A stretch of 42,164 nucleotides of DNA. Source: a virus. Where the stretch lies: IMG/VR virus record IMGVR_UViG_3300021373_003334, positions 1-42,164 of that record; one strand, 5' to 3'. How positions within the stretch are numbered: position 1 is the stretch's first letter; each line of letters starts with the position of its first letter. Positions 15,303 through 42,164 of the stretch are shown here, piece by piece. Made by a program: the position numbers and the translations under genes. The notes beneath the pieces were generated by a model, which was not told the DNA's origin, ran no database searches, and saw only the letters and a program-made list of their open reading frames with translations.

Positions 15303-16490
15303 TTATTCCCAAGGAAGTTTTGTATCGTTACTTCCGCTAACAAAAACACCTTTGTTTGTGTCTTTGGTTCCGCCAATTTGAGTAGAGAACGTAATGTCAA
15401 CACTCTTGTTGGAGCCGATACTTGATGAGAAGTTTTCGGAGTCAATTGTACATCCTTTCATGATTACAGTCATTCCTTCGTTGCCTCCGCACTCTGCCAT
15501 GGATACTGAAACCTCTCTAAGAGTTCCTTCTCCACAACCGCTGATCATTTCAGCAAGGTTTTGAGCTTCCATTGTGTTAACAATAGCATTTACAGTGAGA
15601 GTTGCGTTAACTGGGAAGTCAACAACGCGAGCAAATGGGAATTTGGAACCAAGTCTTTCGATTGGTGTTCTGGATAGGGGTAGTGACAGAGAAGCACTCT
15701 GAATATGAATTCCACCAGCACCAGAAACTTTAGTCAAGATGTTTTTATCAAAGCTGTCAAGATTTAGTGTGAGGTCTCCTGGTCTAAGAGCTGAAAGTTT
15801 ATCTTCATCATCTGCTTGATAGTCTCCAGTATGAGAGTTACCAGTAGCATATGGAAGAGCGATTTCAAGTTGATTACCACCTACGCCAGTTAGAACTTCT
15901 CCGTTTACTGGGTCAACAGCTGGAGTATAGATTCCAGTAAATCCGCTGATAGTGGTGTTTTCCCCAGAAACGGTAACGTCTGAAATGATGTTTGAAGCCT
16001 CAAAAGAAATCGTAGCGGTTGGGAGTGAGCCAACTGACATATCTAGAGTATAATCAGTAAGGAATGCGTTTCCAATTCCGATTACTGCATTTTCCGATGC
16101 ACCGTCAAATCTATTAAGGTTTGCGTCTTTACCTTCTGGTACAGTAAGAATGAAAAGGTTTTGTCCAGAACTTGATGCAAGGTGTCCAGAGGCGAATTGA
16201 CCGCTAACTCCTGGTTTACTGGCATTTTGAACCAAAAAGTTCAAAGCTCTTTCATTATAACCATTAGTTACATAATAACTAAGATCAAAATTGACTGTTG
16301 GTGGTTCCAATATTAGCGAATCAATACGAGCCAGATTACCAAATTGGTTAACATCCTGACGATTGATTGTAAATCCGTAGTTTGCGCTTTGAACACGGTG
16401 AAGTTGTGCGTGATCTGAAACTCCAGTAGAGTTATACTCATTACTGACGTAAAGCGCTTCTGATTGATAAATTACTCTATTTCTTGCCAT
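15303..16490 (-). CDS. tail-tube-type protein, copy 1
   Basis: The 395-residue beta-rich protein is the first of two tandem tube paralogs, separated by 26 bases. Diagnostic segments shared by all five tube-like proteins of this window are FLTDYTLDMSVGSLPTATISF (about 143-163) and IQSASLSLPLSRTPIERLGSK. The C terminus TIDSENFSSSIGSNK is shared only with copy 2. Tube proteins stack as hexamer rings around the tape measure to form the tail. The start regions of the two copies share more than 25 identical bases, pointing to recent duplication or gene conversion. The start codon has no ribosome site, as with the paralog. Confidence 0.75.
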   Translation of the reverse strand: MARNRVIYQSEALYVSNEYNSTGVSDHAQLHRVQSANYGFTINRQDVNQFGNLARIDSLILEPPTVNFDLSYYVTNGYNERALNFLVQNASKPGVSGQFASGHLASSSGQNLFILTVPEGKDANLNRFDGASENAVIGIGNAFLTDYTLDMSVGSLPTATISFEASNIISDVTVSGENTTISGFTGIYTPAVDPVNGEVLTGVGGNQLEIALPYATGNSHTGDYQADDEDKLSALRPGDLTLNLDSFDKNILTKVSGAGGIHIQSASLSLPLSRTPIERLGSKFPFARVVDFPVNATLTVNAIVNTMEAQNLAEMISGCGEGTLREVSVSMAECGGNEGMTVIMKGCTIDSENFSSSIGSNKSVDITFSTQIGGTKDTNKGVFVSGSNDTKLPWE

Positions 16491-26500: not shown

Positions 26501-29012
26501 AGAACTCGACATAGTTTCAGCTAAAACAGGCGCACAAAAAATAGCCGCTCAATTCGAAAAAGAAAAGCTTATAGAAATCCTTGGTTTGAGGCAGCAGATT
26601 GCAGCTATAGATCCAAATGATCCAGAAAAGGCCCAGAAGATTTTTGAAATAGAAAAGAAAATAGCAGAACTAAAAACCAAGAGTCAAAGTTTAGCTCAAA
26701 AATTCCAATCTGAATTTTACGAAACAGAACAACAGAGAATTGAGAAGCTCCAAGATGCTTTGGTTTCTGGAGCCAAAGAATTTAGCAGGAGTTTATCTGA
26801 AGGTATTACCGATGCTTTGCTTAAGGGTGAGGATTTGCGTGAAACTTTAAGTGGCGCAGTAAATAATTTCTTGAGAAAACTTTCTGTGACCAATTTAGAT
26901 AATATCTTTAATAAAATATTTAGCAAAATTGGAGATGTCTTTGGCTTGCCAGTTCCAGACCTTTCTAAGAGAGATGGATCTAGTCAAAAAAGCGCTTTGT
27001 TCGTCCAAATGGTGACAGACGAAAAACAAAAAGATTTAACTCAAGAAGAAGAGTTCCTCGATAAACTTTTAGGAAAAGATAAGCAATCTGCACAGCGTGG
27101 TTATGGTAAAAATAGTCCTTTATTTGTTGAGGTTGTTAATCAAGCTAGTACTGAAATCAATAAAAAATTTATAGAGCAATTAAAAGAACAAATTGAGCCA
27201 GAGAGTAAGGAAACTCCAAAAATAGAAAAAAAGCAGGAAGATGTAGTATTAGGTGAGGAAAAAAGTCAGAACATGTTTGAAAAATACTTCTCTAATATAT
27301 TTAAATCATTTGGCGATGTATTTTCTAAGTTTGTTTCTAGCTTGAAAAACTTGTTCTCTGGTTTTGGAGGAGGATCTTCAGCAGGAGGAGACAGTCCTAA
27401 GTGGGGCTCTACTATTGGTTCCGCATTAGGTTCTTTATTAGGACCTCTTGGGAGTTCGATAGGTGGACAATTAGGACAACTTCTTCCGTTCGCAACTGGA
27501 GGACCAGTTAGAGGTGGTTCTGGAAGCAAAGATGATGTTCCAGCGCTGCTTATGGGTGGCGAATATGTCATGAGAAAAGATTCCGTGAAAAAATACGGAA
27601 AAGGCTTCATGGATAAAGTTAACGAAGGTAGAATGAGCAAATTCGCAGAAGGCGGAGTTGTTGACAATCAATATATGTATACTTCTGGGGCGAGTAAGAT
27701 AATTGAATCCAGTGGTGATGGTGGGAATTTTATGAAAACCTTCTCAAGCAGTGATAGCGTATTGAAGTTTGCTGATGGCGGCATGGTTGGTAATATATTT
27801 GGTGTTCGTGACGATGAGTTTAAAGAGGGGGATCAAACTGGAAAATTTGGATTTTTTGCACCAGGGAGTTATGGAGGAACAATAAGAGGGAAGGAAAATT
27901 TAGGATCTTTTGCGACCCAAGCATTTACTTCGGGAACACAAGATGTTATTTCTAATAGAAGCGATCAATTTGGAGGGGCTTCATTTATCGGCCTTGAGCC
28001 AGAGAGTGTTAGATTAACTAATTTTGGAAGGAATCAAGGAAGCCCTTTACAAAGAGCTACACAAGACGCTAAATTGCAAGCCTTTGATCTTAGACTTGCT
28101 CAAATAAATCAAGAAAAGCAGTACGAAGAAATGGTCAAACAAAGAAAGAAGCAAATCCGAAATATGTGGATTAATGCTGCTATTCAAATTGTTGGGGCTG
28201 GTATCAACAAACTTGGCGGTGCTGCTCAAGCTGGAGGTTCTGCTGCTGGTGAAGCTGCTGGGGCTGCTGGTGGAGCTGCTGGGGCTGCTGGTGACGCTGC
28301 TGGTACAGCGGGTGGAGGGTTTGTGTCTAGTATTACATCAGGTTTTAAAAAAGTTGGCACTTGGTTAAAGGGAGCTTGGTCTGGATCTAAATTACCTACG
28401 GGTCTTTTTGACGATAACAAACAACCTCTGTTTACCGCTGAAACTTATGGGGGTATAGGAAATGTTGGAACTGGAAGAGAGAATATAGGTAGCTTTAATC
28501 AATTAAACAGCACTTTGATGAACGATCCTGGAGGAAGCTTGGCTCAATCTTTGGGATACACCAGAGAAAGGGCGGCTCAAGGGTATAATTACAATATACC
28601 AAAGAATTTGCGGGACATAACAGCTCGGCCTCCTGGATACGCTACAGGGGGAATGGTTGAAGAGAAGGTTGGTGCTGAAGTAGATGGAATTCCAGCAATG
28701 CTTTCTGGTGGAGAGTTTATAATGAACAATGCCGCCGTTAATAGGATAGGAAAGTCTAATCTAGAAAAAATGAATTCTGGATTGGAGGGTAAGGATTCTG
28801 AAGGTGGCGAATCAAATCAGAGATTGGTTTCTAAATTAGATGAGTTGATAAATGCAACTAAAGAATCAACTGGGGATGTTACTATAAATGTTAATTCAGG
28901 TGGATCTTCATCTGGTGGTGGGGACTCTAGTGGAAAATGGGTTCTGCGGAACAAGCGGAAGAAGGCGGTAGTACTGACGAAACAAATACCAGACGTTTCG
29001 CTAACAGACTGA
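20577..29012 (+). CDS. tail tape measure protein with embedded nuclease-like domain
   Basis: At 2811 residues it sets tail length and is thought to be ejected with the DNA. Residues ~40-380 form the tape-measure core, with repeated Ala-rich helices (AALELSRQGLSAEEVTKRLN, AGLTAAVNSFSKAGLTTGEV). A membrane-like segment lies near 420-445. Residues ~573-985 carry five (I/V)PNF motifs with a PD-(D/E)XK-like segment between them. A second hydrophobic stretch lies near 1145-1190. About 1200-2150 is long helix/coiled coil. The C-terminal part has Gly-rich motifs typical of tape measures, such as FATGGPVRGG...VPALLMGGEYVM and GIPAMLSGGEFIMNN, and an Ala/Gly tract near 2546-2582. If ~0.15 nm per residue applied throughout, the tail would approach 0.4 micrometres, but the inserted domains make that an upper bound. 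The expected C-terminal signature is in another frame (28937-29077). Confidence 0.92.
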   Translation: MPIRVPVEQTGLEISIQKAAQKAGRNLKINLGTSAKDVKSLEQPLGRITGQADEFGKSMEAANARVLAFGASVGIINAVVQSFKNLVSTTIEVEANLAKINSILKTTTSGLSALKAEIFEIAKNTEQTFDTVANAALELSRQGLSAEEVTKRLNDSLILSRLAGIDAAEAVAGLTAAVNSFSKAGLTTGEVLNKISAAANSFAVSERDLIEGFKRSASVAEQAGVSIDELGGIITAVQQRTARGGAVIGNSFKTIFTRIGRSENLELLNSLGVQITDVEGKILPATKLIENLAKQLEKLDDIQVRAVSEKIGGGFQIAPLLAALADYSSETSVALAATQKFQNATTEAYDKNIVLNQTLAAAINTTVLSVKELANTLGELGVTDTFKTVLNFFNNFAEGAQKILDGEGIGGTFARGFVKGLGTVLISGGIGLFVVLLGKLSFQLAKFGFDSLKTFLNIGTETKKLQSTQQQIVSTLLTDKGIREQILSIENSNLSAAEKKRQQAQFFTSALKEQLAITKQITAIGASVAPNVLRSTSQATRRSAGGFLPVGAEQKDISKGVGGAPKGAKPVVIPNFSFGGGKKGTMVANDSEYIVPNFAGGGSAIFNQDMVKSMGLPSGAKKINAAGGFIPNFANGKADASKASSVLPGLVNSSQSYILLTGDNSADENKTLYAGPTKKGKGITAAYSSLDEAKTYLASGLISRVSVPKYSMQTSERKKGSGKSKSDIDYLETEVSRFSSNLARNYAKSLSSDGQIPKATKAKISSLFNKGALSGFAGTIFETGLSAVLNDDEFKDYSSRTDTSRIDLPSSPRLFEKFGVTNASIGSAGAEVKNRAGSDQLKSTAKKFYDILVGRQNAFAYKKDSPLSSQFIDQKSALAKYDISKEQYKKIEADYGTPSGSKRPLPASLFSKYKLKDSAASGYIPNFAGGGALEEAIQREKEAGVPVNQIRINQDGKLRNSQNPQGIAVTNTRDEPTGRIPNFSNLTGGATREQLYPNSQGSGSSGNSNVGEAAQDSTGRLIALSTAAFALQSIFSGVGDEAEGLGANFARATSDIAGLITTLTAFQALGLDRASQARKEEAGGGLASIGGKLEGNITGFGDKLTKRGERLASKNQVAAPLGRRTLRDIGNIDVGKLGGRGLGGATKFLGIIGKAGPIVGKVVGGFAKFIPLVGPLIAGFQGISAVLKIFGVDLGGIVGKSFDKLKQAVGLADTPMQVFAKRVEEANKNLAEGVLGGKTGQSVFNNVASEQRRLFQARSAGKSGKDLDEELAKAPAEILQENIKDFGKSNLGLGTKQVKVQIPNTGGAFAGAAPTSVNTTRKTFDGVEVSQKAQAKIQQAADFYGEQFTQLVLQASTKEQREGEDLSTKEGLRRVQKKVLEGPEGDRLREIRNLSQQAAVANAEGQEAQEYGLLQDILKIEKEIFKANQDKITVKNVNKTLDAQIAKIQADSLFQQSLSLSNIKSELEFRLELQKTLVTTSQLEKEAAQRRLDSISFEKKERASLATIARDTLKSNESVKKAFNVGAVGEISEKSLKAYNRLVEGTAEQVLRTGKLDEESLKARIKLNEKILGDKDKIFNLVKETLSAEQSKLNIEKASLDLARERGVLANIEAQQAKRRVSDFEDALTAQSQIIDSERELLTLKKDRDIEEIKRRRGAAGASPEGKVSIDKQISDRELQFQKDVRDQNVVKAVESLEKSLFQEFKGLGLSLSQIQLAGVGKNLIGQQGTNADRERAAKALQLNLETIFKQQEKQRIDKSADEAVKAQELLAKESISVLKFQSANITFEGTVSKFGRIVSAFGKVGKFFGFGDEIEKETKGDKERKAAQDRINTEIEEISGARDEEIKSIRDKAVELKKEVENFKSGIKLFKFGNQLKVISETFELASDRARNALLEAGASLTTFANLVRDEFNKIATTKAQNAFTLATSADPSAIQGSLSSQGRIAELESGVRDGLTGVEAIRQANEITALRQKELDIVSAKTGAQKIAAQFEKEKLIEILGLRQQIAAIDPNDPEKAQKIFEIEKKIAELKTKSQSLAQKFQSEFYETEQQRIEKLQDALVSGAKEFSRSLSEGITDALLKGEDLRETLSGAVNNFLRKLSVTNLDNIFNKIFSKIGDVFGLPVPDLSKRDGSSQKSALFVQMVTDEKQKDLTQEEEFLDKLLGKDKQSAQRGYGKNSPLFVEVVNQASTEINKKFIEQLKEQIEPESKETPKIEKKQEDVVLGEEKSQNMFEKYFSNIFKSFGDVFSKFVSSLKNLFSGFGGGSSAGGDSPKWGSTIGSALGSLLGPLGSSIGGQLGQLLPFATGGPVRGGSGSKDDVPALLMGGEYVMRKDSVKKYGKGFMDKVNEGRMSKFAEGGVVDNQYMYTSGASKIIESSGDGGNFMKTFSSSDSVLKFADGGMVGNIFGVRDDEFKEGDQTGKFGFFAPGSYGGTIRGKENLGSFATQAFTSGTQDVISNRSDQFGGASFIGLEPESVRLTNFGRNQGSPLQRATQDAKLQAFDLRLAQINQEKQYEEMVKQRKKQIRNMWINAAIQIVGAGINKLGGAAQAGGSAAGEAAGAAGGAAGAAGDAAGTAGGGFVSSITSGFKKVGTWLKGAWSGSKLPTGLFDDNKQPLFTAETYGGIGNVGTGRENIGSFNQLNSTLMNDPGGSLAQSLGYTRERAAQGYNYNIPKNLRDITARPPGYATGGMVEEKVGAEVDGIPAMLSGGEFIMNNAAVNRIGKSNLEKMNSGLEGKDSEGGESNQRLVSKLDELINATKESTGDVTINVNSGGSSSGGGDSSGKWVLRNKRKKAVVLTKQIPDVSLTD
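22293..23525 (+). repeat. five (I/V)PNF linker motifs inside the tape measure
   Basis: The encoded motif x-(I/V)PNF-(A/S)-x-G occurs at residues 573, 595, 630, 924 and 980 (VIPNFSFGGG, IVPNFAGGG, FIPNFANG, YIPNFAGGG, RIPNFSN). They are spread over about 410 residues, each near a domain boundary. They bracket the nuclease-like segment and look like linker or processing sites. Confidence 0.65.
22500..23340 (+). other. PD-(D/E)XK-like domain within the tape measure
   Basis: Between the third and fourth IPNF motifs the sequence changes character from helical ruler to a mixed domain. It shows GTIFE (E782), RID (D807), then AEVK (E831, K833), followed by a helix (SDQLKSTAKKFYDIL). The E...D...ExK order and spacing of about 25 and 24 residues match the catalytic pattern of restriction-endonuclease-fold nucleases. 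The family is not named by any longer motif, so this is a fold-level inference. Confidence 0.5.
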
Positions 29013-29077
29013 AGGAAGAAGTCCTTAAAATAATAAAAGAAGAAAAAAGATTAGGGGGTTCACTTAGAGGTATATAA
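28937..29077 (+). CDS. tape measure C-terminal signature in shifted frame
   Basis: An ATG at 28937, one base before a TGG codon of the tape measure frame, opens a 46-codon frame that overlaps the annotated end by 76 bases. It reads on to KEEVLKIIKEEKRLGGSLRG. The ending helix followed by EEKRxGG is the usual closing signature of tape measure proteins. Its TAA overlaps the next gene's ATG as TAATG, as for truly adjacent genes here. So the real tape measure probably continues into this frame by a sequencing error or programmed shift at the AAAA run (28934-28937), or this is a separate small gene. The in-frame TAG just upstream (28929-28931) limits where the shift can occur. Confidence 0.55.
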   Translation: MGSAEQAEEGGSTDETNTRRFANRLKEEVLKIIKEEKRLGGSLRGI

Positions 29078-32000
29078 TGAGTGCTATATTAAATTCGGAT
29101 GTTAGATTTTTTACAGATGGTTATGAACTATCTGGCATTCAATCTGTTAATTTTAATTATAGGGGTGCAGAAGCTAAATTAAAACCCTTGGGAACAAAAG
29201 AGGGATTAACAACACATAGTGGTCCAGTACAGCAATCAGTTTCTTTATCAAGAGTATTGGTTTATGATGATCCTATTTTTAGCTATACAGGAGATGCTTC
29301 TATTTCTGGTAGTATTTACTACGGTGATGCTTTTTATGCTTTTGATAGTGGTTACTTGTCAGATTATTCTGTAAATTGTGCAGTAGGGGCTGTGCCAGTA
29401 GTTAATACTAATTTTCAAATAGTTTCGGAAATGTCCGAAGGAGATCCTTATGATACAGATCTAGAACAAATTATTTATCCAACTCCTAAAAATCATCCGC
29501 CACTAGATGTTCCTACCCAAGGCTCTATAACCGTAAGTTGTGATGGATCTTCTTCAAATAGGGTTATAGGTTTTAGCTATTCAATAAAGTGTCCGCGAAA
29601 AACATATCTTACTATAGGAGACAAAGAGATTCAAAAGGTTGAACTTTTGCCACCTCTTGAATATACAGCTTCTGTTCAACTTGAGGTCACAGATGCTTTT
29701 TTGCAAGATGCATATAAATTTTTAGAGGTAAAACAAGACAAGGATGTTTCTATAGCTATTAGTGGAAGGTCTAACGAGTATTATGGTTCTTTCCATTATT
29801 TAAAAATTCCAAATGCTAGTTTGGTAAGTGAAAGCCTTGATATTTCTGCCGACGGAGTTGGTAAGCTAACACTTAATTACGTTGGTCATTCTTCAGAATA
29901 CGAGGAAGACCCATTGCAAACAGATACCACTTATGTTTTTGGTGAAGGCGGTTCTATTATTGATAGCACCGAGGAGAACATTATAGATTATCGATGGAAA
30001 AAAGATGATTTAGATGTTTATGGATTACAATTAGGCAGCAATCTTTTAAAAGTTGACGGAGAGTCATTCATGAACGCTTCTAACCTTCGTGGGGATTTGT
30101 ATATTAATATGGATTATGGTACCCCAGAACAAGATTCAGTTATTGCATGGAACGCTTTTGATAATTGCTCTGGTTTTGATGGTGAGTTGATAGTTGAAGA
30201 AGGCTTGCAAGGAATAGAATATCGAGCTTTTAGAAATTGTAATTTTAATGGTAATCTTCTTTTACCAGAAAGTGTTAATTTTATAGGTCAGCAAGCTTTT
30301 CAGGGTTGTTCTAATTTTGATGGATTTTTAAGACTGCCAGATAATGAAGAGTTGGCCATAGGTGCGCAAGCTTTTAGAAATTGTAGCGGTTTAATCGGTG
30401 ATTTATATATACCAGATTCTATTTCAGAGATTAAAGATAATACTTTTTACGAATGCAAAAAATTAAATGGTACTCTTTATTTGGGAACTGGTATAAAAAA
30501 TATACGAAAAAGCGCTTTTCAGCGTTGCTCTAGTCTCGTAGGTGATTTGACAATGCCAGAATATCTAACTGGGATAGAAGATTCTGCTTTTTTTGATTGT
30601 TATTCGTTTGATGGAAACTTAAGTTTAAATGATTCTTTGGAACGAATAGGTGAATATGCTTTTGCTAGTTGTAGTCAAATTAAAGGAAATTTAATACTGC
30701 CAGATTCACTTCTTTCAATTGGAGCGTATGCTTTTAAAGATTGCTCAAAATTATCCACAATTACTGTGGGGGAGGGTTTGGATTACATAAATGAAGGGGC
30801 TTTTGTTAGGGCTAATCTTGAAGGCGATGTTGATTTTAAAAATGTAGAAGGAATAGATTATAGAGCATTTTATCAAAACAATATTGGTCAATTAGACTTT
30901 AGTAGAAATAAAATTCAACAAATAGGAATCGAAGCCTTCCGTTTTTGCAAGGAAATAAACGGAGATTTAATTTTGCCAGATTCTTTAACTTATTTAGGAG
31001 ACAGAGCTTTTGATAACTGTCGTGGGCTTGATGGGGATTTGGTTATTGGTGATGGATTAACTGAAATACGAAGTTATACTTTCTCTGAGACTTATATTGA
31101 TGGGGGGCTTACTTTAGGCCAAAACATAGAAACAATCGAACAAGAGGCATTTAGAAATGCTGGTTTTACAAATCAACTTGTTTTACCCGACAGCCTTAAA
31201 AATATTGAATATAGGGTATTTTATGGATGTGGTTTTACTGGAGATTTGGTTTTACATAGTGGAATAAAAAAAATACAAGGAAGAGCTTTTATAGAAAACA
31301 GAAGCATTAAAAGAGTTTTTGTAGATTTTCCGAGGACTCGTTTCATCAACTTTAATCAGTTTAAAAATGTTGGTAAAGCAGTGGGTGGTGCAGCTTTGTA
31401 TGCAAATCAGAGAGATTATTATGATTATTTAGAGGACCCTTCTGATGAAACTCAACTTTATAAATCTTTTAGGGGTTTGCCAATAAGAAGGGGGGCTTTA
31501 GAAAGTAGGGTTTACAGAGCTAGTAATGATGAAATTCTTCAGTCATTAAATTCTGATATACCCTCTGCCTGGTATGATATAAATGATAGTAACTCTAATG
31601 GCAATCCAACTGTTTATCTTGATATAGGATATAATACAACCGAAGTAAATGGAAAAGCCTTTAGGGGTAATGTAGATATATCGGGAGATCTTTTTTTCCC
31701 TCCTAGTATTAAAAGGATACATGAGCAGTCTTTTTCGGGGTGTAAAGGTTTAAAAAAGAAACTTATATTTAGTGAAGGTATAGAAAAAATAGACGAATAT
31801 GCGTTTATAGATTGCGATGGTTTTACTGGTGATTTAATTTTACCAGATTCTCTTACAGGGATAGATAGACAAATCTTTAGAAACTGCAGTGGTTTTAATG
31901 GTAAATTTAAATTAGGGACTGGAACTGCAAACTTAGGAAATCAAATATTCAGAGGTTGCAAAAATTTAACTGGGGAGCTTTATATTCCAGGAACCTGTGA

Positions 32001-35000
32001 TACTGTTAATTATTATGCTTTTGGAAATTGTACGGGTTTTAGTTCTTTGGTTATGGAAGAAGGCGTTAACATTTTGGGTGATAGCGCTTTCCGTGGATGT
32101 TATAATATATCAAACGATGTAGTTATACCAGACTCGATAATAACAATATCCAAAAATGCTTTTAGGAATGATTATAATATGCAATCTATCTCCATAGGAA
32201 ATGGAACTAAGTATATTGGAAATAATGCTTTTGAAAATTGCAGCGGAATACCTTCAATAATATTAAGAAACAATATTACAGGTATCGGGAATGGTTGCTT
32301 TAAAAACTGCTCTAATGTTCAATTTGCTTATATAGATATACCTATAGAGGCTATAGGAAATTACAATAGTTTGAGATTTGTTGATGATGGTAATAATACA
32401 TCAGACAGAATATTATTTGTTTCTGAAAGATATTATAACGATTACTTAACTGCAAGTACAACATCATTATCTGAGCCTAATAGCAGCACTCCAGTTCAAG
32501 GTTATTTTCAAGGAAATCTAATTTCTATATGGCCCGATGATGAGAGGCAAACTGTATATTATGATTCTTCATTTGAGACTTTGGACAGCAGATTGGATAA
32601 TGTGCCCGATTTATGGAAAGAAAACGATACTGATGGAAGTTATTTGTATATAGGAACAAAAACAAAAACAATTGGCGAAAAAGCTTTTCGTAATAGTGTG
32701 GATGGTGTGTCTAATTTGAGTGGAACACTTCTTTTGCCTTTTAGCTTAGATACTATTAAAAGAAGCGCTTTTTCAAGAACAAGATTTTCTAGCGTTGCTT
32801 CTCAAGAGGGCATTAAAAGAATTGAAACTTTTGCTTTTTATGGTAATCAGGAGATGAAGACGCTTACCTTACCTTCGTCTTTAGAATATGTCGGTATACG
32901 CGCTTTTCAATATCTTAATAAAATAAATAAAATTAAAATAGGTACAAATTATCCTAGGGTTAGAAGAACTGTAATTGACGAATACGGTTTTGAAAGGTGT
33001 GGTTTTGATTCCAATAAACAGGGGACACTTGATTTGGGTTATAGCGTAAATAAAGTTTCGAAGTTTGGCTTTACTTCTTACAACCCAACCAATTTTATTA
33101 GCGCAGGAAATTGGATTAAGACGTTAAATTGTAGCGCCAGGTGGATCGATACTCAAGCGTTTTTCCAACAGACAAATTTATCGGAGCTTAATTTAACAGA
33201 GGATACTAAGGTTATAGGAACTCAATGTTTTGAAGGTTGCACTAGTTTAACTGATGTAGTTGTGCCAGAACCATTAACTATTTGGCATTACGTTTTTAAA
33301 GATTGTAATAACATTAATAAAATTGAATTAGGAACACAGGATAATAGCAAATCTAGAAATGGGGAACTCAAAGAGAACTCGATGAGGAAAATTGGTACAG
33401 ACACCACGAATGGGACACTAATAATAAATCGTTCTATAAACAAACTTGGTAAACATGCATTTTATGGCGACGTTGGTTATAAATGGATAGAGAATGCTTA
33501 TTTAAATTGTAGGGAAATTGGTTATCGAACATTTATGAATCAACTTAATTTAAATAAATTAACATTTGGACCTTTGCTTAGAAACTTGGGAGATCCAAAT
33601 AATATAAAAACTGAGCAGTGTTTTTACAATTGTACTGGACTAACTGGAGTTAGAATTCCTGGTTTGCGATATTTGGGCCCTTACTCGTTTCAGCACTGTG
33701 GTAACATCACTGGAATGTATTTAGGCAATGATGATGATCCACCAACTGCTCGAATAGAATATCATGGTGGAACTAATATAGGGGCCACTCAAAAAGCTTT
33801 AGGTGCTAAAGGTCATGTATATATTGGGTCTTCGGTTGACTCTATACATTATTACGCTTTTTACGAAAGTGCTGCGGATTATTCTTGGATTAAAACACTT
33901 GATTTAGGAGCTAGAAATTTAGAAAATGCGAGTAACACTGAACATGGTTGTTTTAGATTTCAATCAGAACTAGAGACTGTTACTTTCCGTGACACCGTTA
34001 AAAGAGTTGGGTCTAGAGCCTTTAATTATTGTTATAGTTTAACTGGGGCTACAATACCAGATCCAGAATATGTTGGTGTGAGTGCTTTTAGATATTGTAA
34101 GAATATGACTGGTGTTTATATAGGGAATATGAATAGTGTTCCTGGAGCATCCGCTGGATTTAATCAAAGAGAGGCCATAGGAACACAATTAGACAATAAA
34201 GCTTGTCAAGTTATGGGTGGAGATAGACTAGGTCAAGGTCATGCTTTTGTTGGTAGTAGCATTGATACTATTGGATCGAGGTGCTTCAATGGTTTTTGGG
34301 GTAGTGATTATTATGGCTATTCTTGGTTAAAAAGTGCTGAAATTCACTCTAGGTGGGTCCGTGATAGAAATTTTCATCATCAAGAACAGATGACTGGTAT
34401 TAAAATCGGGGAAACCGTGAAAATTCTTGAAGATTATTTTTGTTGGAAATGTTATTCTTTATCGGGCACATTAACAGTGCCAGACCCAGAGTGGGTGGGG
34501 CAATGGCAGGTTTATGGTTGTAGTAATCTTACTGGTATTTATGTGGGTAATGACATAAATACTACAAATGGAATTATAGACGGTAACGCTTATAGACGTA
34601 TGGGGCCAGCAAATCCTGCCGTAGGTTTAGGTGAAGTTTATATAGGATCTTCTATTGATTTTGTGAAAGACGCAGCTTTTTCTGCTTATCTTAATGATAG
34701 CAATAGAGGTTATTATAGGTGGATTAAAGATTTAAATTTAAATTGTAGACAAATTGGATATCACGCTTTTTATTATCAGAGCAATATAGAAACAATAAAT
34801 TTTGGAGATAATGTCAGAGAGATAGGCGAAAGCGATTCTCGCGGTAGAAGTTTTATTAATTGTGGATCTAAAATAAAAACTATACGTATAAATAATCCTG
34901 AATATATTTGGACGGAAAGTTTTTATGGCTGTTACGGTATCACTGGAATATATCTTGGTAATGATACAGAAACAACAAATGGGACAATAGGAAACAACGC

Positions 35001-37092
35001 ATTTAGATATATTGGGTCAAGTGCAAATAGTGAAGGTTATTTGTATATTGGGTCTTCTATAAATTATATAGGTACAAACTCTTTTCGGGCTGATAATGCA
35101 AGTAGAAAATGGTTAAGAAAGGCTGATTTGAATTGCAGAGAAATCGGTAAGAGTGCATTTTACGATCAAGATAATTTAACTGAAATTAATTTAGGTCGTA
35201 ATGTTAATGTTATTGGAGATGAGGCTTTTAATAATTGCGATGGTTTGACGGAACTTGTAATTTCAGATCCGCTTTATCTTGGTTCTAGAGCCTTGTTTAA
35301 TGTAAGAAATTTAACTGGATTGCGTATAGGAGGAGAGTTGGGCGTAGACACTGATATAGTGGGAACCATTGGAAGTGAATTTGGAAAACAGTGTGGTCAA
35401 AATGTTAATGGACAGCTAGATGTTTATATAGGGGATTCTATTAATCTCGTAGGCACCAACGCATTTAATGATGAAGGTATTAATTATAATGCTATTCGTA
35501 AGGCAGAGATAAATTCCGCTGTTATTGGAGATAACGCTTTTAAGTATCAACAATTAATGACAGGTTTGAAGCTCGGCCCTAAGGTTAAAACTATAGGGGT
35601 AAGCGCTTTTGCATTTTGCGATGATCTTAAAGAAATTAGGGTGTATGACCCCGAACTTCTTAGTGCAAATTGTTTTGATAATTTAAATTCTGTAACTGGA
35701 GTTTACATAGGAAACAATGTAGAAAATACAAGCGGATTTATAAAAAAATACGCTTTTTGGCATGGCGGTAGAGATGCTGGTGTTGATGGTCATCTTTTTA
35801 TTGGATCTTCAATAGATACAGTCTCAAGCCAAAAACCTTTTTCTGCAAATTACACAAACGGCCGCTGGTTAAAGAGCGTGGATCTTCACTGCAGGGTGTT
35901 AGGGTCTAGTTTAGATACCACGAGTAATTGGACTGACGATTTTGGCACATTTAGAGAACAATCAAATTTAACTACAGCAAGACTTGCGGATACTGTAAAA
36001 TATGTAGGAAAAATGACGTTTAATAGATGTTATACATTAACTGGTTTTAGAGCTCCAGCTCCTAAATATATCGGAAGAGGTGTTTGCCGATTTAATCACG
36101 ATCTTACTGGGGTTTATGTAGGTAACGATTATGAAGAAAATGTATGTGATATTGAGATTGATGCTTTTTATGCTGTGGGTCGTGACAATGCTGGCGTAGA
36201 AGGTATTACAGCAAGTAATCCAGCAAGGGGTCATGTTTATTTAGGTAATAGCGTTAATGTTGTCAAAGAAAGAGCTTTTGTGGGTGGTTATGAAAACGGA
36301 TCTGTTTGGAACTCGTCTCCTTATTATGGCTATGCTTGGATTAAGACCGCAGATATAAGTCCATATCATATTCTTAGTCATGCGTTTCGTTTCCAGACAG
36401 CTATGACTGATTTGAATTTGAGATCTACAAAAATAATAGATAAAAACGCATTTATAAATTGTTACCATATTAAAAACATTGAGCTTACAGGAGATAATTT
36501 TATCATCAAAGAATATGCTTTTAATAATTGTAGAAGAGTGCAAGATTTAAAACTAGGAGCAAGTGATGGTACCAACGGAACGAGTAGAATCGAGAAAAAC
36601 GCTTTTAGAGCTGTTGGTTCAATTACTGATGATGCTGCTCCTTTTGCAAATGTTATTATTGGTAGGAGTGTAAATTATGCGGGTGAATATTCTTTTTATG
36701 GAGACTACAATTGGATTGGCAATGCACTTGTCAATTGTAAGATTGTTGACGCTTACGCTTTCGCAGAACAAAGACAACTGACTAGTCTGCGTTTTGATTG
36801 GGGATGTACTGATATTAGAAACAATGCATTTAAGAATTGTGTAGCTCTAAAAGAAGATGTTATTTTCAAAGGAAAAGAAGTCAAAATTGATAGTAATGCT
36901 TTCTTAGGTTGCCCGATAAGAAACGTAGGCTTGAGAACTAAAACTGAAAATGTAGCGTTGGACGCTTTCCCTAATATGACGGGAGCTTTCTATATACAAA
37001 GTGACTATTTTGATTCTTGGCCTTCGGAATTTAACGGTAGGCCAGTAAAACTTTGGGCTAATTTTTCAGATAGAGTACCAAGTGATGTTTAA
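29077..37092 (+). CDS. giant tail-tip protein: tube-like domain plus BspA-type leucine-rich repeats
   Basis: The 2671-residue protein follows the tape measure, where the distal tail protein is expected. Residues 1-280 match the tube proteins of this phage: YLSDYSVNCAVGAVPVVNTNF (93-113) against FLTDYTLDMSVGSLPTATISF, and VIGFSYSIKCPRKTYLTIGDK against the SASLSLPLSRTPIERLGSK segment. A Dit-like hub role is inferred. From about 315 to 2640 it is almost all BspA/TpLRR repeats of ~23 residues (LxLPDSLxxIGxxAFxxCSxLxG). They form three blocks (about 30019-31494, 31500-32540, 32550-37070), each ending in a DYYDxY...G.P cap. Such repeats bind proteins or surfaces, so a host-adhesion role at the tail tip is likely. 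No signal peptide is present. Low ribosome-site strength, coupled by TAATG. Confidence 0.8.
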   Translation: MSAILNSDVRFFTDGYELSGIQSVNFNYRGAEAKLKPLGTKEGLTTHSGPVQQSVSLSRVLVYDDPIFSYTGDASISGSIYYGDAFYAFDSGYLSDYSVNCAVGAVPVVNTNFQIVSEMSEGDPYDTDLEQIIYPTPKNHPPLDVPTQGSITVSCDGSSSNRVIGFSYSIKCPRKTYLTIGDKEIQKVELLPPLEYTASVQLEVTDAFLQDAYKFLEVKQDKDVSIAISGRSNEYYGSFHYLKIPNASLVSESLDISADGVGKLTLNYVGHSSEYEEDPLQTDTTYVFGEGGSIIDSTEENIIDYRWKKDDLDVYGLQLGSNLLKVDGESFMNASNLRGDLYINMDYGTPEQDSVIAWNAFDNCSGFDGELIVEEGLQGIEYRAFRNCNFNGNLLLPESVNFIGQQAFQGCSNFDGFLRLPDNEELAIGAQAFRNCSGLIGDLYIPDSISEIKDNTFYECKKLNGTLYLGTGIKNIRKSAFQRCSSLVGDLTMPEYLTGIEDSAFFDCYSFDGNLSLNDSLERIGEYAFASCSQIKGNLILPDSLLSIGAYAFKDCSKLSTITVGEGLDYINEGAFVRANLEGDVDFKNVEGIDYRAFYQNNIGQLDFSRNKIQQIGIEAFRFCKEINGDLILPDSLTYLGDRAFDNCRGLDGDLVIGDGLTEIRSYTFSETYIDGGLTLGQNIETIEQEAFRNAGFTNQLVLPDSLKNIEYRVFYGCGFTGDLVLHSGIKKIQGRAFIENRSIKRVFVDFPRTRFINFNQFKNVGKAVGGAALYANQRDYYDYLEDPSDETQLYKSFRGLPIRRGALESRVYRASNDEILQSLNSDIPSAWYDINDSNSNGNPTVYLDIGYNTTEVNGKAFRGNVDISGDLFFPPSIKRIHEQSFSGCKGLKKKLIFSEGIEKIDEYAFIDCDGFTGDLILPDSLTGIDRQIFRNCSGFNGKFKLGTGTANLGNQIFRGCKNLTGELYIPGTCDTVNYYAFGNCTGFSSLVMEEGVNILGDSAFRGCYNISNDVVIPDSIITISKNAFRNDYNMQSISIGNGTKYIGNNAFENCSGIPSIILRNNITGIGNGCFKNCSNVQFAYIDIPIEAIGNYNSLRFVDDGNNTSDRILFVSERYYNDYLTASTTSLSEPNSSTPVQGYFQGNLISIWPDDERQTVYYDSSFETLDSRLDNVPDLWKENDTDGSYLYIGTKTKTIGEKAFRNSVDGVSNLSGTLLLPFSLDTIKRSAFSRTRFSSVASQEGIKRIETFAFYGNQEMKTLTLPSSLEYVGIRAFQYLNKINKIKIGTNYPRVRRTVIDEYGFERCGFDSNKQGTLDLGYSVNKVSKFGFTSYNPTNFISAGNWIKTLNCSARWIDTQAFFQQTNLSELNLTEDTKVIGTQCFEGCTSLTDVVVPEPLTIWHYVFKDCNNINKIELGTQDNSKSRNGELKENSMRKIGTDTTNGTLIINRSINKLGKHAFYGDVGYKWIENAYLNCREIGYRTFMNQLNLNKLTFGPLLRNLGDPNNIKTEQCFYNCTGLTGVRIPGLRYLGPYSFQHCGNITGMYLGNDDDPPTARIEYHGGTNIGATQKALGAKGHVYIGSSVDSIHYYAFYESAADYSWIKTLDLGARNLENASNTEHGCFRFQSELETVTFRDTVKRVGSRAFNYCYSLTGATIPDPEYVGVSAFRYCKNMTGVYIGNMNSVPGASAGFNQREAIGTQLDNKACQVMGGDRLGQGHAFVGSSIDTIGSRCFNGFWGSDYYGYSWLKSAEIHSRWVRDRNFHHQEQMTGIKIGETVKILEDYFCWKCYSLSGTLTVPDPEWVGQWQVYGCSNLTGIYVGNDINTTNGIIDGNAYRRMGPANPAVGLGEVYIGSSIDFVKDAAFSAYLNDSNRGYYRWIKDLNLNCRQIGYHAFYYQSNIETINFGDNVREIGESDSRGRSFINCGSKIKTIRINNPEYIWTESFYGCYGITGIYLGNDTETTNGTIGNNAFRYIGSSANSEGYLYIGSSINYIGTNSFRADNASRKWLRKADLNCREIGKSAFYDQDNLTEINLGRNVNVIGDEAFNNCDGLTELVISDPLYLGSRALFNVRNLTGLRIGGELGVDTDIVGTIGSEFGKQCGQNVNGQLDVYIGDSINLVGTNAFNDEGINYNAIRKAEINSAVIGDNAFKYQQLMTGLKLGPKVKTIGVSAFAFCDDLKEIRVYDPELLSANCFDNLNSVTGVYIGNNVENTSGFIKKYAFWHGGRDAGVDGHLFIGSSIDTVSSQKPFSANYTNGRWLKSVDLHCRVLGSSLDTTSNWTDDFGTFREQSNLTTARLADTVKYVGKMTFNRCYTLTGFRAPAPKYIGRGVCRFNHDLTGVYVGNDYEENVCDIEIDAFYAVGRDNAGVEGITASNPARGHVYLGNSVNVVKERAFVGGYENGSVWNSSPYYGYAWIKTADISPYHILSHAFRFQTAMTDLNLRSTKIIDKNAFINCYHIKNIELTGDNFIIKEYAFNNCRRVQDLKLGASDGTNGTSRIEKNAFRAVGSITDDAAPFANVIIGRSVNYAGEYSFYGDYNWIGNALVNCKIVDAYAFAEQRQLTSLRFDWGCTDIRNNAFKNCVALKEDVIFKGKEVKIDSNAFLGCPIRNVGLRTKTENVALDAFPNMTGAFYIQSDYFDSWPSEFNGRPVKLWANFSDRVPSDV
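33028..36900 (+). repeat. ten higher-order ~130-residue LRR modules
   Basis: Within the third LRR block the repeats are organised in larger units. Each starts with a strand like VYIGSSID, then W(I/L)K...LNCR, IG..AF..Q, a second repeat, PDPEY, and LTGVYIGN(D/N). Start points are about 33028, 33418, 33817, 34243, 34636, 35041, 35422, 35794, 36235 and 36649, so the period is 372-441 bases. The copies are diverged, indicating old duplications. Confidence 0.65.
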
Positions 37093-37097
37093 AAAAA

Positions 37098-39143
37098 ATG
37101 AGCGAAGAACTTTTATACGATAGAACTCAAAACTTCAGCGGGGTATCTTTGATATCAGAGTTTGATTATACGCCGATTTATGGTAGTTCTGTAAATTTTG
37201 AATCATCGAATTCCGTTTTTAATACTAATGATAATTATTTTCAAATGCTACCAAAAGGCATAAATAATCTCAAAGCAAAGTATAATTTAATTTATAAAAC
37301 CGATGAGGATGGAGTTAGAAAATTAGCTAATTATTACGAAAGTTCTCGCGGTGATCGCATGGTTCCAATTATAAGCGACCCTAATATATACAAAATAACT
37401 TCTGGTTATTGTACTGATTATTCTGTCACTTATGTTAATAATCAGAATTATGAATTCAAAGTTTCTTTAGAGGTTGTAGAAGCATCTTCTGTTATTAACT
37501 GGAAAAGTATGGAGTTTTTGTCTTTTGACGCTCCAGAGTGGAAGTGGAATTATTCATATCAAAAAGACGATGTTGTTTTCTTTAAATCTAATGATATGGG
37601 AATAAATAATTTTTTCTACTGTACGAGAGATCATGTGTCTTCAGCTGACAATTCTCCAATATCAGAAAACTCAAATTGGACTCAAGACTTTAAATGGGAG
37701 CCAGATTTAAATTCTTCAATACAAGTTAAGCTAGATGTAGATAAGAACGATAGTTCTACATTAACTACTTTCACTAAAGTAAAAAAGAATACAGCGGTAT
37801 TCCCTATTAATTATAGTTTTTCAAACATATCAACGAAGCAGCTTATAGCGATGCTCCACTTCCTTGAAAATAAGTGCGGCTATAGGAGGTTTGCTCATAA
37901 ACCTCCAAAGGTATTTAATAGGCCTAAAGTTTATATTTGTGAATCTTGGAGTCATAGTTTTGTTTATGATGATTGCCATAATCTTTCTGTTTCTTTCAAA
38001 GAAGATCCTCTGGGTGTAGTTCCAAGAAAATCGACGCTAGATTTAGATGAAACAAAATTGTCAAAAGTTTTGACAACAGCTTATAACTCTAATAATGAAC
38101 CTATTTATATGGGTTTGGAAAAGCCTAATTCAATAGAAGGAGATATTCCACCATCTTATTTTTCTAATTACAGTGATATTTCTAGAGTTGAAATTGGCAA
38201 TTCTGCTTCATATATTCCATACAGAGCTTTTTCTGATTGCCCTAATTTAACTGGAGAATTAACAATACCAAATAACATTAAATATATTTCAGATTGGGCT
38301 TTCGGAGGCCTCATAAGTGAAGAAACAAACCCAAAAATAAAAGGAAGCTTGTATATTCCTGATTCGGTAGAGTGGATTGGTAAATACGCTTTTCTAAAAA
38401 ATGATTTTGGTGGAACTTTAACTTTTGGATCAAACTCTAAATTAGATTTTATTGATGAATCTGCTTTTTATGGCTGTGGATTTACAGGCGTTTTAATAAC
38501 CCCAGACAGCCTTAATTCAATAGGGTCTAATAGTTTTAGGGAAACTAAAATACAATTTCTTGATTTAAATAATGGTTTAGAAAAAATTTGGCCAGCAGCA
38601 TTTAAAGACTGTGTTGATTTAGTTGGAGAATTAATAATACCAGATACTGTTGATTATATGGGTAACCAAGCTTTTATTCGTTGTTCTGGTTTGGAATATA
38701 TAGAGCTTAGTAGTGGTTGTCCAGTAATACCGCAGGGTTGCTTTGAAAAATGTTATAATGTACAAGAAGTTGATATTCCTACAGGGGTTTTAACTTTGGA
38801 TCAAAATTGTTTTGGGAACATGAATAGTGTTTTAGAGTTTATATTACCAGAAGGTCTTGAAGAAATTGGTACATATTCTTTTAATAAATGTAGAGGAATG
38901 ACTGGAATAACTATACCAGAAAGTGTAGTATCAATAGGAAATTCGGGCTTTCTTGATACATCATCTTTAGAGTCGTTTTATATAAATTCCCCATCATCAG
39001 TATTTCAAGGTATAGACGCGTTTCAACGAACTTATACTGGTCTTAAAATATATGTTGGCGCGGATTATTTAAGCAGTTATACTACTAATTGGAGAACAGC
39101 TCAAAAGGTTCCAAACGAAGCTGAAATATTGGAATGGATATAA
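37098..39143 (+). CDS. tail-tip protein: tandem gpM-like domains, CBM5/12-like insert and LRR block
   Basis: This 681-residue protein has two copies of a lambda gpM-like minor-tail fold: about residues 45-130 (INNLKAKYNLIYKTDEDGVRK...) and 205-305 (STKQLIAMLHFLENKCGYRRF, then KVYICESWSHSF). Between them, about 146-195, lies a module with the CBM5/12 sugar-binding pattern (W, YQKDDVVFF, FFYC, P, NW). From 340 to about 640 it has BspA-type repeats, ending in the DYLSSY cap. gpM is a tail-tip protein, and gpM homologues follow the tape measure in siphophages. Likely location is the tail tip, adhesion to the cell surface being inferred. The leader is A-rich with no ribosome site and starts 5 bases after the previous stop. 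Confidence 0.65.
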   Translation: MSEELLYDRTQNFSGVSLISEFDYTPIYGSSVNFESSNSVFNTNDNYFQMLPKGINNLKAKYNLIYKTDEDGVRKLANYYESSRGDRMVPIISDPNIYKITSGYCTDYSVTYVNNQNYEFKVSLEVVEASSVINWKSMEFLSFDAPEWKWNYSYQKDDVVFFKSNDMGINNFFYCTRDHVSSADNSPISENSNWTQDFKWEPDLNSSIQVKLDVDKNDSSTLTTFTKVKKNTAVFPINYSFSNISTKQLIAMLHFLENKCGYRRFAHKPPKVFNRPKVYICESWSHSFVYDDCHNLSVSFKEDPLGVVPRKSTLDLDETKLSKVLTTAYNSNNEPIYMGLEKPNSIEGDIPPSYFSNYSDISRVEIGNSASYIPYRAFSDCPNLTGELTIPNNIKYISDWAFGGLISEETNPKIKGSLYIPDSVEWIGKYAFLKNDFGGTLTFGSNSKLDFIDESAFYGCGFTGVLITPDSLNSIGSNSFRETKIQFLDLNNGLEKIWPAAFKDCVDLVGELIIPDTVDYMGNQAFIRCSGLEYIELSSGCPVIPQGCFEKCYNVQEVDIPTGVLTLDQNCFGNMNSVLEFILPEGLEEIGTYSFNKCRGMTGITIPESVVSIGNSGFLDTSSLESFYINSPSSVFQGIDAFQRTYTGLKIYVGADYLSSYTTNWRTAQKVPNEAEILEWI

Positions 39144-39155
39144 TTTAAAAAAAAC

Positions 39156-42100
39156 ATGTCTAGAATAACTTTAAAAAGCCCTAATAGCGCTGTATTAGCC
39201 CAAGGAAAATTATTAAATTTATCATCTTCTTTTTTAGGTGGAAGAAACTTTTTTTACCAAGCTAATCTTTTAGGGGGTGTAACAAGCGTTTCTTATTCTA
39301 TACCAAAAACAAGACAAACAAAAAGACAGGTAGGCTCTTGTTATTATGCTGCAGATGATTTAATCAGGCATGCAGAGGTGGACTTAACTATAGAATATCT
39401 ATTCTCTCCCAGCATGATAAATGAGAAGCTTTTATACATACATACAAAAGATGTTTTTTTACCTTCTGGATATGAAGGTTGGGAAGGAGGAGATAATTTA
39501 GAATCGTCTTTTTTGCCTTTGGAAAGGGATGCTAGATCAGATATATACATATATAATCATCCAGATGAAGAATCAGATGCTATTCGTTATTTATCTTCTA
39601 GTGAGAAATTAGAACCTAATGGAGGAGAAATATTAAGCTTTTCTGATTGTTTTTTGACAAACTACAGCCTTTCTTTTGAAAACAAATCTTTACCTAGAGT
39701 ATCTGCTAATTTTAAAGGTCAAACACTTAAGGCTGGTAAATACACTGCACCTAATTTTCTTAATGCAAGGTCGGAATATTCTAAAAGCTCAAGGAGAAGA
39801 GAATATTATTGGTCCGTAACAAGTGATTCGACTAATTATGAAAATTTTTATGGGACTGGAGTTCATTTGGATTTAACAGATCCGATTACTCAAAATCCTT
39901 CAGATTTAATTTTAGAACTTGAGAACGTTCAAATTGGGGGCCAAAACATAGATAATGTTAGTCATATTATCAATTCTATGTCTTTTGATATTCCTATCAA
40001 TAGAATATCTTCTTATGGTCTTGGATCGGACAGGTGTTTGGCTAGAGATTTTCAGGTTCCAATTAAAGGGTCTTTAAAATTAAGTTCTCTTGTGGACAAT
40101 TATCAAACTGGCATAATATTAGATCTATTGGAGAATGAGTCTGATTACAACTTTACTATAAAAGGAAAAAGTTGTGAGGAAGATTTAGAATGCGTGTTTA
40201 GGTTTTCAAATGTTAAATTGGAATCTTATTCTTATAGCATGAACGTAAATGAAGATATGGTTTACTCTGCTGAGTTTTCTTATAGTTTAGATGATAAATC
40301 ATACGAGGGTCAATTTTTAGCTGGCATGACAGCGGAGGTTCGTAAAACCGATTTTTCAAAAACATATCTTTTTGACGCTAATGGCGACGTTGATGCTTTT
40401 GATGATTCTTCCGATGGAATTGTAGACAATCTTTTCGGATCAACAAATGGAGCTAATGCAAAAAAAATTCAATTTTCAAAAATTCCTAATTTATCTATTG
40501 GCGATTATGTTCTTTATAGTAATTTAAGCATTGAAGGTGACATAGAAATACCAGATAATGTTACAAGTATAGGAACTTGGTTTTTAAATGGTTGTAGTAA
40601 TGTAAATAATGTTTATTTAAACATACCAGAAAGCTCTGTTGGTGTTAATTCTTTTTTAAATGGACCAACAGGTACTCTTTATATAGGATGTGATTATATA
40701 GATGATTATGGAGAGATTTATAATGGAATGCCTGTGGCTGTTTGGGATAAATATACATGTGATTTAGTCACAGTCCCAGACCCTGTATATACAATTACTC
40801 CAGATAGTGATGAAATTGCAGAGGGATCTAACTTAAGGTTTGCCGTCAATGTGCAAAACTTACCGCAAGGACAAACAATTTATTGGAAGATATCTAATAA
40901 TCAAGCAGATTTTCAAGTTTCACAGGGTGGGCCTATTACTTTAGATGGTAATGGTGATGGCGAGTTTTTTGTTACTCCAGAAGAAGATTTGACTAGCGAA
41001 GGGATTGAATTTTTTAATGCTTCTCTCGTTGCTGACAATGTCGTAAATGGTGAAATTTTAAAAACTTCATCTCCTGTTTCTATTTTAGATACTAGCCTTT
41101 CTCCTCCTGTTTATAATGTTTATGCGAGAAATAATATCAATAATGTAAATGAAGGTGGTATTTTTTGGGTTGATATTATAACACAAAACGTACCAAATGG
41201 AACTTTGCTTTATTGGTCTGTTAGTGAGCCTGGTCAATTTGAAATATTTGAAGGTCAGGTTCCTGTTAATAATCAAAAAGCTAGTTTTTATGTTACCCCA
41301 AAAGAGGATTTAACTGATGAAGGTGATACTTTTTTTAATATTGATATAGTAGATGGTGACAGTAGCCCGATTGGTTCTTTAAATAGTATAAAAATAAACG
41401 ATACAAGTGTAGAGCTTCAAAAGTTTTATTCTATATCTGCACAAAATAATGTTACAAGTGTTGACGAGGGACAATCGTTACAGTTTAATATAACTACAAC
41501 AAATGTAACTGAAGGAACAATATTATATTGGGATGTAACTAATGCTGGTGATATTGATGATCCAAGCAGTGGTCAAGTTGTGGTAGATGAGTTTGGTGAA
41601 ACTCAGTTTTCTGTCATACCAACTCCTGATGCTTTAACAGAAGAGTTACCAGAGTCTTTTATAGCTAGAATATATGAAGATCCTATTCCTGGGCCAGATC
41701 CAGTAGCCTCTTCTTTACAAATAACAATAAATGATACTAGTCAAGGTGTTTCTGAAGATTATTCTATAAGCGTCGGATCTAATCAAGATGAATTGAATTC
41801 TATTAACGCTATCGTAACAACAGCAAATGTTGCTCCTGGTACTTTAGTTAATTGGGAAATAGAAGGAATTGGGGGTTCTCCAACAAACGCTAGCGATTTT
41901 CTTGTATCATCTGGAAGTTTTAATCTCGATTCAGAAAGTCAGTATAATTTAACTATTATACCTGTAGCCGACTCTTCCGTTAACGAGGGTGATGAAACAT
42001 TTGTTATTGTATTAAAAAACACCTTGAATCAAGAGGTCGCTAGAAGTATTTCTATTAATCTTGCGGACACAAGTCAGCAAGAAGCACAAGTATATACAGC

Positions 42101-42164
42101 GACCCCAGGTGCAGATTCTGTTGAAGAAGGTTCTTCTTTAATAATAAATGTAACAACAGAGAAT
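39156..42164 (+). CDS. tail-tip protein, 3' truncated: tube-like domain, short LRR, Calx-beta-like repeats
   Basis: The frame opens at ATG 39156 after an A-rich leader and stays open to the window edge (1003 codons). The N-terminal ~400 residues are a third tube-like fusion: CFLTNYSLSFENKSLPRVSANF matches FLTDYTLDMSVGSLPTATISF, and INSMSFDIPINRISSYGLGSD matches the IQSASLSLPLSRTPIERLGSK segment. A short BspA-type repeat block (about 40480-40752) ends with the DYIDDYG cap. From 40785 come Ig-like repeats of 105-111 residues ending in (I/L)xDTS, resembling Calx-beta domains, five seen so far. Extended arms of this kind act as spacers and adhesins. The full product must be larger. Confidence 0.65.
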   Translation, partial: MSRITLKSPNSAVLAQGKLLNLSSSFLGGRNFFYQANLLGGVTSVSYSIPKTRQTKRQVGSCYYAADDLIRHAEVDLTIEYLFSPSMINEKLLYIHTKDVFLPSGYEGWEGGDNLESSFLPLERDARSDIYIYNHPDEESDAIRYLSSSEKLEPNGGEILSFSDCFLTNYSLSFENKSLPRVSANFKGQTLKAGKYTAPNFLNARSEYSKSSRRREYYWSVTSDSTNYENFYGTGVHLDLTDPITQNPSDLILELENVQIGGQNIDNVSHIINSMSFDIPINRISSYGLGSDRCLARDFQVPIKGSLKLSSLVDNYQTGIILDLLENESDYNFTIKGKSCEEDLECVFRFSNVKLESYSYSMNVNEDMVYSAEFSYSLDDKSYEGQFLAGMTAEVRKTDFSKTYLFDANGDVDAFDDSSDGIVDNLFGSTNGANAKKIQFSKIPNLSIGDYVLYSNLSIEGDIEIPDNVTSIGTWFLNGCSNVNNVYLNIPESSVGVNSFLNGPTGTLYIGCDYIDDYGEIYNGMPVAVWDKYTCDLVTVPDPVYTITPDSDEIAEGSNLRFAVNVQNLPQGQTIYWKISNNQADFQVSQGGPITLDGNGDGEFFVTPEEDLTSEGIEFFNASLVADNVVNGEILKTSSPVSILDTSLSPPVYNVYARNNINNVNEGGIFWVDIITQNVPNGTLLYWSVSEPGQFEIFEGQVPVNNQKASFYVTPKEDLTDEGDTFFNIDIVDGDSSPIGSLNSIKINDTSVELQKFYSISAQNNVTSVDEGQSLQFNITTTNVTEGTILYWDVTNAGDIDDPSSGQVVVDEFGETQFSVIPTPDALTEELPESFIARIYEDPIPGPDPVASSLQITINDTSQGVSEDYSISVGSNQDELNSINAIVTTANVAPGTLVNWEIEGIGGSPTNASDFLVSSGSFNLDSESQYNLTIIPVADSSVNEGDETFVIVLKNTLNQEVARSISINLADTSQQEAQVYTATPGADSVEEGSSLIINVTTEN
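40785..42164 (+). repeat. Calx-beta-like tandem repeats, at least five
   Basis: Repeat starts at 40785, 41109, 41424, 41757 and 42090 give periods of 108, 105, 111 and 111 residues. Each begins with (V/F/D)Y-x2-x and a (V/I)xEG-type turn, continues with a strand ending in YW-(K/S/D)-(I/V) and closes with DTS. The fourth copy has lost the EG turn. The last is cut by the window end. Calcium binding, usual for Calx-beta, is not shown by the sequence here. Confidence 0.6.

Follow-up and report, generated by a model that had tools for sequence, protein, structure and literature searches.

BspA-type leucine-rich repeats as putative swappable adhesion arms on predicted tail-tip rings of an uncultured, probably long-tailed virus

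Phage tail proteins with adhesion domains include evolved Dit proteins and proteins with Ig-like decorations, and the genes of the tail tip usually come after the tape measure gene. The best structural precedents for the locus described here come from phages T5 and lambda. In T5, p140 is a trimer that follows the tube and is itself followed by the distal tail protein, so that it adds an extra ring between the two; it is thought to be a duplicate of the tube protein, and its C-terminus touches the collar by which the side tail fibres are held in place (PMC10038345). In lambda, six copies of gpM form the ring between the tube and the tip hub (PMC10721106). Leucine-rich repeats (LRRs) of the BspA type (PF13306) are carried by the surface proteins BspA, TpLRR and PcpA. 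Gut phages also encode BspA-LRR proteins, among them PHROGs 35892 and 18805, which have no assigned function, and in the phage records examined such proteins carry labels such as hypothetical or unknown function. In the Ruminococcus phage NatCom_23091 (L091:3937-5304), a BspA-LRR gene directly follows that of a minor tail protein; the N-terminal part of its product looks upper-baseplate-like by eye, and no tube or gpM base was recognised in it.

The window analysed here is an entire linear IMG/VR virus record (IMGVR_UViG_3300021373_003334; 42,164 bases), from an uncultured, probably long-tailed virus of bacteria or archaea. It encodes a terminase large subunit, and its portal-like and capsid-protease-like matches are weak. 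A tape measure gene (20577..29012, plus strand; 2811 aa; PF10145, E=1.4e-29, with many PHROG tape-measure matches) would correspond to a tail of ~420 nm, by arithmetic on tape measure length from general values. Three successive genes follow on the same strand, which we call A (29077-37092; 2671 aa), B (37098-39143; 681 aa) and C (39156-42164; 1003 aa, open at the contig end).

A and C share the double tube-domain fold of T5 p140 and of pb6, the T5 tail tube protein, and, like p140, are proposed to form extra rings. Unlike the T5 proteins, they flank a gpM-type gene, and whereas p140 lacks the Ig-like domain that decorates pb6, the proteins of the window append LRR regions of up to ~2,400 residues. 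B holds two domains of the family of lambda gpM (PF05939), but differs from gpM in that the two are fused and separated by an insert, and in that an LRR arm extends its C-terminus in two of the phages identified. The repeats are of the same type as those of BspA, TpLRR and PcpA (PDB matches 4fs7, 4gt6, 4cp6 and 6mlx), but sit on phage tail-type bases rather than on a cell-surface anchor. The principle, an adhesion domain on a conserved tail ring, is that of other decorated tail proteins; however, the window uses LRRs rather than CBM or Ig domains, the additions are far larger, and they are found on three consecutive gene products. A sequence-only reading of this DNA had considered the serial use of such repeats by a phage, as receptor-binding arms on modified tail-tube domains, to be undescribed. 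This was overstated in that LRRs in phage tails have a precedent in the Ruminococcus phage, but fusions of LRRs to tube or gpM rings were not found elsewhere: a structural search of viral models returned no tube-LRR fusion among its best 50 matches, and no description of LRR tail-tip arms was found in the literature covered, which leaves out most subscription journals.

Domain architecture of the three proteins

The domain architecture of A, B and C is well supported. Residues 1-272 of A (29077..29892) form its base. An AlphaFold2 model of residues 1-819 (pLDDT 80) was compared with the PDB by Foldseek, and T5 pb6 (2.2e-8) and p140 (2.4e-8) led the matches (7qg9 chains A and G), followed within the top ten by BspA LRR structures. 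The model aligns with p140 across about the length of p140, which indicates that a single chain holds two tube domains. The rest of A, from about residue 284 onwards, consists of BspA-type LRRs, about 2,390 residues in all (PF13306, also named LRR_5; E=2e-203, 664.7 bits against a curated cut-off of 27.7), arranged as three successive modules, each with an N-cap, repeats and a C-cap. Module 1 (29926..31491; N-cap at residue 284, C-cap at 774) was delimited by the Pfam profile and by a search for units and caps; its predicted solenoid fold is mostly of high confidence and matches 4fs7, 4gt6, PcpA and TpLRR in Foldseek. Module 2 (31507..32535; N-cap at 811, C-cap at 1113) was assigned by the unit and cap search and by comparison between modules. 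Module 3 (32551..37089; N-cap at 1159, C-cap at 2638), assigned by the same search and by repeat-motif sites, is built from super-repeats of ~130 aa, with its motif sites spread over residues 1320-2528 at nine spacings, mostly of 124-142 residues and one about double. The nearest relative, L084, has 3 such sites, as against the nine spacings from residue 1320 in A.

The base of B (37098..38033) was assigned from the PF05939 profile and an alignment of relatives as two gpM-type domains on either side of a conserved insert (about residues 140-205; 37515-37712). The profile matches all 24 members of the B family tested at E<=1, in two stretches in the B protein of the window, whose base scores 57.9 bits against a curated cut-off of 39. 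Lambda gpM was the sole match of this base among PDB profiles, at a weak E=0.14. A Sialidase-like CBM profile, PF22585, matches 6 of the 24 members (best E 3e-4), and, going by the alignment, this match would fall in the insert that separates the gpM halves. The LRR module of B (38085..39140; C-cap at residue 651) is matched by PF13306 at E=6e-73 (243.1 bits, cut-off 27.7), with 4fs7, 4gt6, PcpA and TpLRR as PDB matches.

In C, the base (39156..40301) again appears to be a double tube domain. A model of residues 1-539 reached moderate confidence (pLDDT 62). Its Foldseek matches are T5 tail-tip and tube proteins, best 7qg9_G at 3.6e-11, and at that confidence it aligns with p140 across about its length, with two tube domains per chain. 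Profile comparison with hhalign found the bases of A and C colinear (237 columns, 91%), and it is by profile comparison only that A is joined to the C family; the same comparison found no link between B and either of them. The LRR part of C is small, about 140 residues (40338..40760; C-cap at residue 508). Its PF13306 match (E=1.4e-4, 22.2 bits) lies under the curated cut-off of 27.7, which is exceeded by its freestanding orthologue, a 147-aa gene in L084 (38.0 bits). That gene (99 bits) and a C extension in L087 (92 bits) are the best matches of this mini-module. It is followed by tandem repeats of ~108 aa (40788..42164; starts near residues 545, 653, 758, 869 and ~982) that run off the contig end and give weak Calx-beta/Ig matches. 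An odd similarity of these repeats to the AGS_C sensor domain, found at the C-terminus of CBASS cyclases, was also seen; we did not retain that identity, since an Ig-like fold common to both is the likely source of the similarity.

These assignments agree with much of the sequence-only reading, which had described three consecutive genes after the tape measure with a common design, a virion-fold base joined to BspA LRRs. The open reading frames, the profiles and the A and C models bear this out, including the tube-like base of A and, on a model of moderate confidence, that of C; the gpM-like base of B is likewise upheld as a profile assignment. The outcome that would have counted against that reading, N-terminal regions with neither fold, did not arise. 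The ~2300 residues of repeats that it gave for the first protein compare well with our count, and its span of 29077-40752 holds for the LRR part, although C continues past it with the ~108-aa repeats. Its five caps, placed near 31393, 32407, 36984, 39046 and 40672, all correspond to the C-caps located here (window positions 31396, 32413 and 36988 in A, 39048 in B and 40677 in C).

That reading had also given these ends a common cap with a DYxxxY core. The five caps stand, but a cap specific to this phage does not. PcpA aligns across the cap region of B, the cap-like end of B in the related locus L088 differs in sequence, and the cap pattern matched once in a shuffled version of A, so that a lone cap match carries little weight. 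The alignment with PcpA makes it probable that this cap is one version of a general BspA cap. A repeat-unit profile, which was derived from A and B and whose counts for these two proteins are thus partly circular, found 34 units in A, 8 in B, none in C and none in three shuffles of A.

Predicted place in the tail

Two tube-like proteins are encoded upstream on the minus strand, at 14143..15276 (377 aa), probably the major tail tube protein, and 15303..16490 (395 aa; 60% identical to the first). The C family is homologous to both (blastp E down to 5.5e-30), and for the first of them the homology to the C base is seen in 76 open reading frames of the relatives; the two are called tube proteins from their fold and place, and are likely the main tube proteins. 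Since C is a paralogue of these proteins, A and C are probably extra tip rings, in keeping with the duplication proposed for p140. The order of the three genes also fits a gpM-like ring linking the tail tube to the tip hub.

The tube fold of A and C, and the descent that C shares with the probable tube proteins, could also be taken to mean that one of the two is a component of the main tail shaft, with LRRs decorating the whole tube. We regard this as highly improbable, because two separate tube-like paralogues are present upstream, and A was set aside as the main tail tube protein on that ground. Moreover, A, B and C follow the tape measure gene, the usual place of tip genes, and an appendage of ~260 kDa on each ring of a shaft is implausible. 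A and C are likely to be tip rings.

Distribution of the repeats among relatives

Relatives were collected with the B base as query against viral contigs, which gave 95 relatives, of which 80 were kept; with four further loci, 84 were examined. The A and C bases as single-sequence queries gave no match in viral contigs, where the B base succeeded, and tblastn at the sensitivity used found no relative of the bases in 50,697 phage records. When the collection was scanned later with queries for the clade and for LRRs, one more LRR-bearing phage (L088) and the bare locus L085 came to light; as these scans used few, short patterns, further relatives were probably missed.

The order A-B-C on one strand is constant in 74 of 74 environmental loci with all three genes. 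The sequences themselves show the domain make-up, the gene order and the C-terminal place of the LRRs, and they show the bases bare in some relatives, with LRRs on different members of the set in others, and with another adhesion-type domain on C in a further one. In most relatives the bases are bare (A 260-273 aa, about 265; B about 319; C about 361) and stop at motifs after which, in the window, a linker and the LRRs start. The A base of the window is 38-56% identical to those of relatives, which are bare proteins except in L003. LRRs were found in four phages. The window has them on A, B and C; L084, which forms one contig with L003, has them on A, with the C module as the freestanding gene noted above (L084:17285-17725); L002, one contig with L087, has them on A and C, its A base lying beyond the contig; and L088 has them on B and C.

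These four phages fall on one side of the midpoint-rooted B tree (100/97), where the placement of L088 depends on a long branch. On this rooting, a gain of LRRs in this clade would be a simpler reading than loss elsewhere. Modules at like positions match best: A module 1 of the window pairs with A module 1 of L084 (421 bits), and the C module pairs with the freestanding gene. This pattern suggests that the modules descended in place. In the window and in L088, the B module is nearer to A module 2 than to the B module of the other phage, which hints at copying between genes. The number of repeats in A varies between relatives.

The C proteins are often extended in other ways as well: 14 of 71 complete ones exceed 420 aa. 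Among the extended B and C proteins that lack LRRs, eight were read and six of these scanned against Pfam; the C protein of L017 matched Lectin_C, and no added domain scored above the limit in the other five. In L017 (11011-13077) and L018 (11008-13260), C has a stretch between its tube-like parts that matches Lectin_C (tested in L017) and a long glycine run. The C-terminal domain of C in L026 (1421-3382) and L028 (10956-12917) looks trypsin-like by eye, with a GDSG motif, although L026 has no Pfam match, and an insert in C of L080 (1955-3358) looks cupredoxin-like by eye, again with no Pfam match. B of L031 (4550-6331) is extended at its C-terminus by about 270 aa that are not LRRs and have no Pfam match. 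With lectin, LRR and other extensions on C, extra domains on this protein are, as far as these sequences go, common in the family, and LRRs are one option of several.

Putative role of the repeat arms

We propose that A, B and C form distal tail rings that bear C-terminal BspA-type LRR arms for binding to the host surface, a reading to which we assign a probability of roughly 60%. The tail would be long and probably non-contractile, and the three proteins would build rings at its distal end, A and C as double-tube-domain rings like T5 p140 and pb6, and B as a double-gpM ring in the manner of a distal tail protein. By analogy with T5, where the double tube-domain proteins form trimeric, pseudo-hexameric rings, each might be trimeric, in which case the tip would hold three copies of every LRR extension. 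LRR modules joined to the C-termini in this clade would then protrude as arms from the virion and could bind the host surface, in adhesion or in reversible receptor recognition; A alone would contribute three arms of ~260 kDa each and, by arithmetic from general values, very roughly 50 nm in length. Receptor binding is the most probable, though putative, function of these arms. Because LRRs are found on different bases in close relatives and are absent from most others, the chains look like an interchangeable attachment device, and swappable adhesion arms on tail-tip rings are the best reading of the locus. A fuller version, in which consecutive tip rings (tube, gpM, tube) each bear LRR receptor-binding arms, with interchangeable modules that could be placed on any ring or exist as separate proteins and that replace conventional tail fibres, is more tentative, and we place it somewhat short of even odds.

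Two other roles could be considered for the LRRs. First, the chains could tether the virion to the surrounding matrix, such as mucus, exopolysaccharide or particles, with the receptor-binding protein elsewhere. A lectin domain on a relative of the C base would suit such general sticking to carbohydrate, as would the match of some B relatives to a carbohydrate-binding module, and the contig ends inside C, so that separate fibre genes may lie past it. However, the tip position and the variation among close relatives also fit host recognition, and in L002 nothing recognisable as a fibre gene comes immediately behind C; we consider this role rather unlikely. Second, the LRRs could be non-adhesive, stabilising the tip, serving like the T5 collar to hold side fibres whose genes lie elsewhere, or being cleaved after assembly. 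LRRs are general protein-binding scaffolds, and the C module of L084, as a separate protein, could dock as a connector. Nevertheless, in most relatives the three genes are present and none of them encodes LRRs, and a variable number of repeats would be unusual in a structural connector, which makes this role improbable.

If host-binding arms are indeed what the LRRs provide, phage lineages would have a route for swapping their attachment device by joining an adhesion-type module, already made, to the C-terminal end of a ring protein. As environmental phages include rings of this kind that are bare, that bear a lectin and that bear LRRs, such a change is traceable and can be tested. It would also widen the range in which annotators search, since no BspA-LRR protein in the phage records examined is labelled with a function.

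Two minor observations concern the surrounding genes. Near the start of the window, positions 867-1628 give nuclease matches of the Endonuclease-VII/T5orf172 type. In L084, a homologue of the two tube-like paralogues shares the strand of the C genes and starts just behind them.
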